Of a stretch of 64,000 nucleotides of DNA, positions 14,323-17,789 are shown piece by piece. The notes under the pieces are model-generated. The model searched no databases. It was given only the letters and a program-made list of their open reading frames with translations, and had not been told where the DNA came from. The DNA is taken from contig NZ_CP063849.1 in NCBI RefSeq assembly GCF_015277775.1, positions 3,534,001 to 3,598,000 on the forward strand. The letters are read 5' to 3'. The position numbers were made by a program, and so were the translations under genes. The DNA is from Paludibaculum fermentans. Its GTDB lineage: Bacteria > Acidobacteriota > Terriglobia > Bryobacterales > Bryobacteraceae. The stretch's first letter is position 1, and the number at the start of each line of letters is the position of its first letter.

Positions 14323-15231
14323 TCATGCGGCATGCTGGAGCGCAAGGAGGCGCTCGCGAGCCTGTCGCGGAGACTGAAAGCTGAGACGTTCGATCAGCCA
14401 CTCGCGGTTGTAGCGATCGCGGAACTCGCGCAGTGCGGCCTGCAATTCTTCGAGGTCCTGGAAGTGCCGCACCCAGAGAAGCTGCTCTTTGAGAGTGCGG
14501 AAGAAACGCTCAATGCAGCCATTGCATTCGGGTTCACGGACAAAGGCAGGCGAGGAATCCATGCCGAGAAAGCGGAGCTCGTTTTGAAAGTGGTCGCTCA
14601 TGTATTGCGAGCCGTGGTCGTGGCGGATCTGCAAGCCGGCGGCGGCTTTGGGGCCGAAGGCGCCGAAGTGCTCACGCACGCCCTGTCGCAATGGTTCCAG
14701 TGCCTCAAAGCGGGTGGCGCGCTTGACGGCGTGAATGCCCACGCACTCGGCGGTGCAGTGGTCGATGGCGGCGAAGACAGTGACCTGGCCATCGGCGAGG
14801 GTAACGGTAGCGGTGGCATCGGTGCCCCACATCTGGTTGGGCTGGCTGGTCACGATGGAACCGTCATGCAACTTCTCCTCCACCGGCACGAGCTGCCGTT
14901 GCGGCGCCAGCAGTTCGTTCTCTCGCGTCAGGCGCAGGACGCGTGGCTTGGAGGTGCGGACCGCTTGGGCTCGCAGTCTCGCCCAGATCTTGCGATGCCC
15001 CTCGCCATGGAAGGGCGAAGCCGCCAGGACGGCGCGGATCTGCTCCAACAACTCGGCATCTGTGTACTTCGTCTTCGGACCGCGCCGCTGCAAAGCCGCG
15101 GGTTGGCGTGCTCTCTGCTGCCTGGCATAGAACGTCGAGCGCGGCTGGCCCCACACGGTCAGAACACGAGCCCGCCCGTACTTGCGGCCAGTGGAGGGCG
15201 ACTGGGCTTGGCTCATCGCTTCGACCTCCAC
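14323..15231 (-). CDS. IS3-family transposase OrfB (DDE integrase domain)
   Basis: 302 residues. The N-terminal helical region has H-G-E-G-H-R-K-I-W-A-R-L-R, the IS3 HTH_21-type block. The rve integrase core has catalytic Asp138 (MWGTDATA), Asp205 (IRHDHGSQY) and Glu241 (CNGCIERFFRTLK), a DD(35)E spacing. The C-terminus has Y-N-R-E-W-L-I-E-R-L-x-F-Q-S-P. It overlaps orfA by 19 bp and has its own ATG, so it may be made separately or by frameshifting. Complete and apparently functional. Confidence 0.92.
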   Translation of the reverse strand: MEVEAMSQAQSPSTGRKYGRARVLTVWGQPRSTFYARQQRARQPAALQRRGPKTKYTDAELLEQIRAVLAASPFHGEGHRKIWARLRAQAVRTSKPRVLRLTRENELLAPQRQLVPVEEKLHDGSIVTSQPNQMWGTDATATVTLADGQVTVFAAIDHCTAECVGIHAVKRATRFEALEPLRQGVREHFGAFGPKAAAGLQIRHDHGSQYMSDHFQNELRFLGMDSSPAFVREPECNGCIERFFRTLKEQLLWVRHFQDLEELQAALREFRDRYNREWLIERLSFQSPRQARERLLALQHAA

Positions 15232-15602
15232 TTCAGAGAAGGGTTGGCGTTCTCCAGTTGCTGGATGCGCTCGCGTTGCAGTTCGACGGTCATGGCGAGT
15301 TCGGCGATGACGGACTTCATGCGCCGGCCCTGCTCATCGACCAGATCGTCTTCGCGGATCTTCAGGCCAGCCTCGCCGCTGGCGAGAAACGCGTCCCGCC
15401 AATCGGACAGCGTGGCGGCGGTGACCGCGTATTTGCGGCTCAAGCTCTCCAGATCCTCGCCTCGGAGGAACTCAAGAACGACCGCCATCTTGCGCTTGGC
15501 CGACCAGCGGCCCTTGCCTCGGCGGCCGGTCCCGGGGGCCTCGGAGGTCGCCCTTCGGGCTCCCTCCGAGGCCCCCGGGACCGATTGCTTGTTGCTGGAC
15601 AT
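15213..15602 (-). CDS. IS3-family transposase OrfA (helix-turn-helix)
   Basis: 129 residues. After a low-complexity N-terminus, the HTH_Tnp domain reads GRWSAKRKMAVVLEFLRGED then L-E-S-L-S-R-K-Y-A-V-T-A-A-T-L-S-D-W-R-D-A-F-L, with a coiled-coil (about 95-120: V-I-A-E-L-A-M-T-V-E-L-Q-R-E-R-I-Q-Q-L-E) for multimerisation. It recognises the element ends. A long perfect inverted stretch within codons 5-30 (GCCCCCGGGACCG-type sequence near 15530-15585) could fold and affect expression. Confidence 0.9.
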   Translation of the reverse strand: MSSNKQSVPGASEGARRATSEAPGTGRRGKGRWSAKRKMAVVLEFLRGEDLESLSRKYAVTAATLSDWRDAFLASGEAGLKIREDDLVDEQGRRMKSVIAELAMTVELQRERIQQLENANPSLKWRSKR

Positions 15603-16124: not shown

Positions 16125-16619
16125 AATGAGGATGTCCAGATGCTGTTCCCGTGAGAGGGACTGAGCTGCCGTAGATTCGATTCTGGCGTATCACCTGGGC
16201 GTAAACGCCCTTGACGCAGGGCGCTCGACCGAAGCACGTCCGGCCCGTTCAATCGTCTGGCCGATTCTCAGAACGGCGGTCGGGCGATCTGGAAGTTGCA
16301 CGCCATACGTCCGGGCTCATCCCGCTCCGGCCCAATTCTCTGCCGCCCGCAGCATGAACCTTTCCTCATTCACCGCCGAATCGGACTTATTTCTCTTTTC
16401 CTTGCACCCACTTGGCGCAAACAATCCCAGATCCCGCCTCCGCGTCGTGCATCATGGAACCGGCGGAGCAAGCGATCCACCCGCATGCGCCGCTGGATCT
16501 TTGAATCGAAAACCGCCGCCCCCCTGCGGCCGCCCTCATCGGCGACCGCCCCAGGTTGGGAGACCAACGCCAACAAACAAGACAATAAGGATAGCCGCCG
16601 CCCGCAATCCCTCATTCTT
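16125..16619. other. Intergenic stretch leading into repeat array
   Basis: About 500 bases with no supported gene. It becomes C- and A-rich on the plus strand before the array. Confidence 0.45.
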
Positions 16620-17248
16620 GAGCGATCAAACCCATCTCTTCGCCCTCAGGCGAAAGTCCAGTCAACTCTCTTTATGAGTGATCAAACCCACTTCTTCGCC
16701 CAAAGGCGAAAGTACCCATTTCGCTCTCCGTGAGCGATCAAACCCATTTCTTCGCCCCAAGGCGAAAGTCTTCTGCACTGCCGCATCAACCAACGCAGCC
16801 GCCCCCAGCATTCCCCCCGGCATTGCCGGGGGCCCATCCCAACAACAACGACACTCCCCCATCCCCCAACCAATCCCAAAGGACTTGAGCGATCAAACCC
16901 ATATCTTCCCCCCAAGGCGAAAGTCTTCTCCACCGCCGCATCAACCAACGCAGCCTCCCCCAGCATTCCCCCCCGGCATTGCCGGGGGCCCATCCCAACA
17001 TCAACGACACCCGCCCCATCCACCGACCAATCCCAAGGGATCTGAGCGATCAAACCCATCTCTTCGCTCCAAGGCGAAAGTCCCCTCCACCGCCGCAACA
17101 GCCCCCACCGCCCCCCCCAACATTCCCCCCGGCATTGCCGGGGGCCCATCCCAACATCAACGACGCCCGCTCCATCCACCACCCAACCCCAACCAATCCA
17201 AAGGGATCTGAGCGATCAAACCCATCTCTTCGCCCCCAGGCGAAAGTC
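16620..17248. repeat. Tandem array of six 39-bp hairpin motifs, three within ~155-166-bp units
   Basis: Six copies of a 39-bp motif beginning GAGCGATCAAACCCATCTCT and ending GGCGAAAGTC start at 16620, 16676, 16732, 16887, 17044 and 17210. Each contains TTCGCC-NNNN-GGCGAA, a six-pair hairpin with a four-base loop. Copy 5 keeps it with a wobble pair; copy 4 (TTCCCC) breaks one pair. Intervals are 56, 56, 155, 157 and 166 bp. After copies 3, 4 and 5 there is a second conserved hairpin, CCCCCGGC-ATT-GCCGGGGG, at 16814-16832, 16970-16988 and 17126-17144. Conserved CCCATCCCAACAxCAACGAC follows. No interval is a multiple of three, so the long open frames across it on both strands are by-products. 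It resembles no repeat class I can name. Confidence 0.85.
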
Positions 17249-17348
17249 TTCTCCACCGCCGCAACAGCCCCCACCGCCCCCCTTGACTCCGGCCACCCAC
17301 CGGCGTAACCCATTACCAGCCATCTATCCTTAAATGAAAGGCTGCGCC

Positions 17349-17789
17349 ATGGTATCCGCCAAGCTGATCCATCAGGTGGAAGATCATTGGGAAGCCATCA
17401 GCGGCCGGTTCCTGCGGCTCCTCCGCTCCAGCCACGGACTCTCCCACATCAGTCAACTCCCCGAATCCGAGATCACCGAAACCTGCCGGCGCCTCCTCCA
17501 CAACCTCGGCAACTACCTCGTCTCCGCCCACCACGAAGACGAACTCGCCCTGCATTATGAGAAGGTAGGCCGCGACCGCTACCTCGCCGGAGTCCCCCTC
17601 AGCCAGGCCCTCCGCACTGTACAATTGATGAAGGATGCCACCCTCGACTTCATAAGAGACGAGATGGTCGTCCAGTCCGGCGTGGATCTCTACGCCGAAG
17701 AGGAGCTCGAACACCGGCTCGGCCGGTTCTTCGATCTGCTCGTCTACCATCTCGCACGCGGATACGAAGAAGCGTGCGGCCGGAAGTAG
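17349..17789 (+). CDS. RsbRD-N-like sensory domain protein (probable)
   Basis: 146 residues, all-helical. The core H-E-D-E-L-A-L-H-Y-E-K-V-G-R-D-R-Y-L-A-G-V-P-L-S-Q-A-L-R-T-V-Q-L-M-K-D-A-T-L-D-F-I resembles the globin-like RsbRD N-terminal domain of stressosome-type proteins and sensor kinases, here with no output domain attached. The start at 17349 was chosen because GAAAGG lies eight bases upstream; an ATG at 17334 would add five residues. First gene after the repeat array, 68 bases before rpsO. Likely an adaptor or stand-alone sensor; the partner is unknown. Confidence 0.55.
   Translation: MVSAKLIHQVEDHWEAISGRFLRLLRSSHGLSHISQLPESEITETCRRLLHNLGNYLVSAHHEDELALHYEKVGRDRYLAGVPLSQALRTVQLMKDATLDFIRDEMVVQSGVDLYAEEELEHRLGRFFDLLVYHLARGYEEACGRK

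Follow-up and report, generated by a model that had tools for sequence, protein, structure and literature searches.

A boxA-preceded array of strand-specific repeats beside rpsO in Paludibaculum fermentans as a candidate noncoding RNA gene

What kind of element is the 630-bp repeat array that lies beside rpsO in the genome of Paludibaculum fermentans, and at which level has it been kept? The array, which comprises six copies of a motif (A) and three copies of a hairpin (B), was analyzed within a window of 64,000 nucleotides (G000:C1:3534001-3598000, where G000 denotes the 9.53-Mb host genome). An initial annotation, made from the letters of the window alone, had described it as a novel array conserved as nucleic acid, and had proposed clustered structured small RNAs, a REP-like element or a recombinase-binding array. 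Comparison across genomes leads us to favour, with a probability of about 60%, a stand-alone noncoding RNA gene protected by antitermination, in which the A motifs would be linear RNA-protein sites and an unnamed protein family, here called STGP, would be the suspected partner.

With regard to its layout, all six motif copies were present, each starting one base before the annotated position (Table 1), and the intervals between them (56, 56, 155, 157 and 166 nt) were as given. When a 38-mer of the motif was searched with up to three mismatches, five matches were obtained in the window versus none in 100 shuffles. The second hairpin, CCCCCGGCATTGCCGGGGG, was likewise recovered, approximately 82 nt after copies 3, 4 and 5, and the units of 150 nt starting at these three copies aligned with one another at 70–82%. 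The TTCGCC/GGCGAA stem ascribed to every copy was perfect in four of the six. What had been missed was the 5′ head of the array, namely a boxA-like site, GATCTTTGA, with the first A copy following 123 nt later; boxA-like sites of the general form GNTCTTTGAnnnnnnnACC were found upstream of many arrays. An IS3-family transposase pair (rve plus HTH; window positions 14323-15602, minus strand) lies just 5′ of the array.

Table 1. Features of the array and its surroundings (window positions) and of three further loci in the host genome
Feature	Coordinates	Strand	Remarks
Array leader	16371-16495	+	L199 (orthologous locus in G002) and L007 (G000) have homologous leaders
Promoter-like block TTATTTCTCTTTTCC	16387-16401	+	Predicted from sequence
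Promoter-like block CACTTG	16409-16414	+	Predicted from sequence
Promoter-like block TGCATCAT	16448-16455	+	Predicted from sequence
boxA-like Nus antitermination site GATCTTTGA	16496-16504	+	Enrichment and conservation
ACC after boxA	16512-16514	+	
Motif A copy 1, core TGAGCGATCAAACCCA	16619-16658	+	With TTCGCC/GGCGAA stem
Motif A copy 2, core TGAGTGATCAAACCCA	16675-16714	+	
Motif A copy 3	16731-16770	+	
Hairpin B copy 1, flanks CCCAGCATT and CCCATCCCAA	16814-16832	+	B family covaries
Motif A copy 4	16886-16925	+	One stem mismatch
Hairpin B copy 2	16970-16988	+	
Motif A copy 5	17043-17082	+	One G-U in stem
Hairpin B copy 3	17126-17144	+	
Motif A copy 6	17209-17248	+	
Gene with RsbRD_N domain, then rpsO and pnp	17334-17789	+	Conserved side of locus; Pfam; G002 orthologue
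L253, class-2 STGP locus	G000:C1:707400-711400		
L258, class-2 STGP locus	G000:C1:4056500-4063500		
L260, class-2 STGP locus	G000:C1:8402300-8407000		

Motif A is not confined to this locus. A DNA search with the window array returned 84 matches in the host genome, where a second array of the same plan, with a homologous leader, was located at 4679066-4679589. The pattern TGRSBSANCAAACCCA gave 82 exact matches in this genome, grouped into about 35 clusters, versus none in the reversed control; 64 and 14 matches were present in two genomes of the same genus (G002 and G006, respectively), and 0–2 in each of 58 other relatives. Only two isolated matches were found in 2.9 million viral contigs. 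Inside arrays, the core was oriented on one strand in 142 cases and on the other in none. Alignment of the non-coding arrays yielded the consensus AATCC.cc.t.ttTGAGgGAACAAACCCATT, and the part conserved genome-wide was the 16-nt core, TGAGSGAWCAAACCCA, upstream of the stem and not the stem itself, since none of 69 copies from other non-coding clusters had a stem of at least 6 at that place. The TTCGCC/GGCGAA stem was restricted to a subfamily formed by the window array, L007 and L199, and was rejected as an RNA structure, no compensatory changes being seen in 13 copies.

As to novelty, a search of the window against Rfam at gathering and relaxed thresholds gave no matches, the best sub-threshold hit being the SAH riboswitch (16 bits of 37 needed, E 3.4), and no description of such arrays in Acidobacteria was found in the open literature. 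The combination of strand-specific A repeats and boxA matched no described family and is apparently undescribed.

A coding role for the window array was rejected, as its intervals do not keep one reading frame and so do not fit a protein repeat family. The annotation had drawn a similar argument from intervals never divisible by three; this held in the window, but 45 of 106 intervals across non-coding arrays were multiples of three, which makes the argument weaker than it looked. Twelve A clusters of the host genome belong to the translated tails of STGP genes and invariably have the orientation of the coding strand. In the STGP genes of the three genomes pooled, 22 of 23 A intervals were multiples of three, compared to the 45 of 106 in non-coding arrays. 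STGP paralogues did not all read A in the same frame: relative to the STGP codons it occupied phase 2 in some and phase 1 in others, with peptides like FEGSNPP and WPTKPI as the products, which indicates that the shared item is a DNA or RNA word and not a peptide. In the STGP tails of L125 and L148, A and B repeats are translated into proline-rich peptides, e.g., FEGSNPP and APRHRRGPIPTTTTPEPNP.

Arrays outside these genes carried boxA in most cases. The sequence GNTCTTTGANNNNNNNACC occurred at 35 sites in the host genome versus 5 in the reversed control; around 16 of them were at A arrays (two at L007), 12 followed STGP genes, one was at a variant A array (L168), and the remainder was close to the control number. 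When the non-coding arrays of three genomes with enough upstream sequence were considered, the boxA 9-mer was present within 500 nt upstream in 27 of 44 and absent from 17, whereas the chance bound, derived from the frequency of TCTTTGA there (45 occurrences in 580 kb of these loci), was at most about 1.7 of 44. None of 19 arrays inside STGP genes had boxA upstream. In two arrays (L138 and L214), boxA was 3′ of the A copies. A stricter pattern with an ACC tail matched 23, 25 and 15 times in the three array-bearing genomes (controls: 0, 0 and 2, respectively) and 0–2 times in other genomes. Untranslated arrays and STGP gene 3′ ends are thus the two settings in which boxA recurs, and the pattern is most simply put as a rule by which a translated tail can do without boxA, which most untranslated ones possess.

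TCTTTGA forms of boxA are known in other phyla. The array sites resemble boxA when set against the gamma-proteobacterial consensus GYTCTTTAANA (PMC5725501). The host's own consensus, which its rRNA leader would show, is provisional, as no 16S gene was detected either by model or by the 1492R site. In the window, the boxA sequence expected of a Nus-controlled unit was found in the presumed leader. Leaders anchored at boxA formed several subfamilies, most of them common to at least two loci, and several had a TATAAT-, TACAAT- or TGCAnnAT-like block approximately 40–50 nt 5′ of boxA, which gives them the appearance of a promoter with an rrn-type leader behind it. As in rrn leaders, a promoter-like -10 element, some 40–50 nt, boxA and a long untranslated RNA would succeed one another; unlike there, no rRNA follows and the RNA would be a C-rich repeat array (C/(C+G) of 0.72 on the RNA strand of the window array). 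C-rich untranslated RNA is the kind on which Rho loads.

Arrays of this kind change fast, yet they retain A and boxA. Over eight pairs of orthologous arrays, 435 of 480 core positions (90.6%) were identical, core positions being defined in one genome and scored in the other, with aligners that favour repeat matches and may inflate this value. boxA was identical at 32 of 32 aligned positions, versus 1906 of 2801 (68.0%) for the remaining array, i.e., the spacers; the corresponding figures were 982 of 1765 for the leader and 2752 of 3141 (87.6%) for the 400 nt downstream. These values bear out the claim that the array is conserved as nucleic acid. Copy number differed between the window (six A and three B) and its G002 orthologue (four A and one B). 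Fast copy-number change of this kind is also what would be seen if the arrays were STGP gene debris, that is, tails left after loss of the coding part whose repeats expand by slippage or duplication without function, and the same A and B repeats do occur in STGP gene tails, while at L265 a truncated 93-aa STGP gene is located upstream of a boxA array. Decay of this sort would, however, hardly leave the A core at 91% and boxA at 100% while spacers drift to 68%, and stand-alone arrays own related boxA leaders, which STGP-tail arrays lack upstream; we consider debris unlikely.

The position of the window array at the edge of an accessory region, pointed out in the initial annotation, turned out to be a general feature, since 9 of 11 orthologous non-coding arrays shared only the downstream flank, with homology ending at or near the leader. 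At the window, identity to the G002 orthologue was 95% across 2.9 kb starting at the last A copy, and leader homology with L199 begins about 248 nt upstream of the first A copy. One-sided synteny breaks, at which the core flank downstream is kept and the flank upstream is replaced, were observed at L124, L127, L132, L135, L138, L139, L152, L157 and the window, and IS3, IS66-like, YD-repeat and other accessory genes were found upstream of arrays in several cases.

With the downstream side being the conserved one and RsbRD_N, rpsO and pnp co-directional with the array at the window locus, it could be argued that these genes are regulated through the array as their 5′ leader, with boxA controlling read-through, the more so as the boxA in the suhB 5′ UTR is a known Nus target (PMC5725501). 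Downstream genes of arrays, however, point either way, and the conserved gene is convergent at several of them (L127, L139, L157 and L143), which shows that a 5′ leader is not the common role; at the window itself, a TTGACT promoter-like site follows the array at about 17282. We regard a leader function as very improbable.

Hairpin B differed from the stem of motif A in that it covaried, so that only this part of the structural expectation was borne out. Both sides had changed at four of eight pairs of its stem, with 20 cells versus a shuffled mean of 6.6, and 94.6% of cells were paired compared to 30–55% when the sides were slid, in a set of 23 distinct elements selected by their left flank, hand-picked from 70 for one geometry and including some imperfect copies. 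Of 38 B hairpins, 36 shared the strand of A. The window array folded better than shuffles on both strands (z -6.3 and -4.8), and folding energy therefore does not decide the strand. The proposal of clustered structured small RNAs therefore found partial support: strand specificity, boxA and the covarying hairpin B point to RNA, and the 39-bp stem showed no compensatory change.

As a short, dispersed palindrome with compensated stem changes, clusters and occasional intragenic copies, B resembles REP/BIME elements. REP superfamilies GTAG and CGTC carry their tag at one end of the palindrome (PMC3733652); here B was flanked by CCCAGCATT and a CCC(A/G)YC-type sequence, A was untagged, and a GTAG/CGTC REP was thus rejected. 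No alternating orientation was seen, no dedicated transposase was apparent among the Y1 genes examined, and a conserved linear motif, A, is present. At L158 (3127-4002, minus strand), a Y1 (IS200-like) transposase gene carries a B-hairpin array as an in-frame N-terminal fusion. This is the only one of nine Y1 genes known to lie beside B, none of the six others examined having a B array. That the family is a mobile or DNA-level repeat of the REP/BIME type, or a recombinase-binding array at an integration hot spot, would account for the many dispersed clusters, for the accessory-DNA border marked by the 9 of 11 arrays, for the IS3, IS66-like or YD-repeat genes upstream and for the Y1 fusion. It would not account for the missing tags, the lack of inverted dimers (142 versus 0 cores), the six Y1 genes without B or the presence of boxA, which would be pointless in a DNA-only role. 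Although the arrays mark one-sided synteny breaks, recombinase binding found no direct support, and DNA-level readings of either type appear to us quite unlikely.

In its expression mode, the noncoding RNA gene that we favour would have its closest analogue in a boxA-led CRISPR array (PMC7862264). Long noncoding RNAs and CRISPR arrays with an upstream boxA are known, and expression of a synthetic CRISPR array increased around 10-fold with boxA (PMC7862264); CRISPR arrays with boxA leaders are those of Stringer et al., as cited there. Common to both are untranslated tandem repeats, a leader and a boxA expected to raise processivity. Unlike in CRISPR arrays, the spacers here are related to one another, the repeats are not constant, intervals span 42 to 237 nt, and the same motif also occurs in frame in protein genes. 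A CRISPR array proper, with near-identical repeats and unrelated uniform spacers, was rejected for the window (intervals of 56–166 nt; units aligning at 70–82%), and no cas genes were seen among the neighbours read (SnoaL, IS3, RsbRD_N, rpsO and pnp).

The STGP family, whose proteins start with ANxANAxxSTGPxTxxGK, has 50, 28 and 34 members in G000, G002 and G006, respectively. Its sequence had no significant match in Pfam, NCBIfam or PHROGs. The AlphaFold model was all-helical (mean pLDDT of 68, with a confident helical core at 47-145), and neither a significant Foldseek match in PDB or BFVD nor a known RNA-binding fold was found for it. The conserved N-terminal segment is basic, and this, together with the link to the motif, is why we guess that STGP may bind RNA.

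In a second STGP class (MATAAQITANQANAKQSTGPV...), 17 of the 18 genes read were followed by boxA 70–180 nt past the stop codon, a count biased because it was boxA that led to most of these loci, and CGAAACGAAGCC repeats often came after it. In an unbiased set from other assemblies, 17 of 59 loci, several of them from other genera, carried a boxA no more than 300 nt past the STGP stop codon (0.021 expected per locus). The array-bearing class-1 genes L125, L148 and L211 had boxA 42–70 nt after the stop. Many of the boxA-bearing STGP genes of the host genome are paralogues with similar flanks and are therefore not independent. At L253, L258 and L260, class-2 STGP genes were followed by boxA and by a different repeat, CGAAACGAAGCC, with CCGGTCCCC/GGACGCCC hairpins, so that this protein class goes together with a putative motif family of its own. 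In other Bryobacterales (L313, L320, L323, L324, L298, L299 and L311), an apparently convergent gene often lay close after the boxA at the STGP stop, such that read-through would make antisense RNA.

In the mechanism that we propose, a promoter-like leader would precede boxA and a C-rich untranslated RNA in which single-stranded A motifs follow one another in tandem, some units having a B hairpin as well. The role proposed for boxA is to load the NusB/NusE complex, so that polymerase may read through the long untranslated RNA, in which A would act as a repeated linear binding site. STGP is the suspected binding partner because the same motif is kept in STGP gene tails, and the resulting RNP may, as a first guess, serve as a sponge or scaffold for the protein. 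In phage lambda, the nut boxA is paired with a second RNA element, and the N protein, with a short basic N-terminus, is encoded adjacent. The arrays likewise combine boxA, a second RNA element and a neighbouring gene for a protein with a short basic N-terminus; unlike in lambda, A is linear and repeated, and no similarity of STGP to N was detected, so antitermination by STGP is only a guess by analogy.

Taken further, these observations may describe an undescribed RNA-protein system of Bryobacterales, in which a multicopy helical STGP family and dozens of boxA-antiterminated arrays would be joined by one linear RNA motif, kept in frame where translated and accompanied by boxA elsewhere, with STGP classes having their own cognate motifs (TGAGSGAWCAAACCCA versus CGAAACGAAGCC); we put this wider reading forward tentatively, at somewhat less than even odds. 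boxA antitermination has been little described beyond rRNA, a few mRNA leaders and CRISPR arrays, and in the present genome, whose approximately 35 arrays look like dedicated noncoding RNA genes, dozens of noncoding loci bear its sequence signature. If true, this would add a class of long bacterial noncoding RNAs for annotation, provide a directly testable rule, namely that an RNA is either translated or antiterminated, and give a genetic handle on an uncharacterised acidobacterial family with up to around 50 copies per genome.
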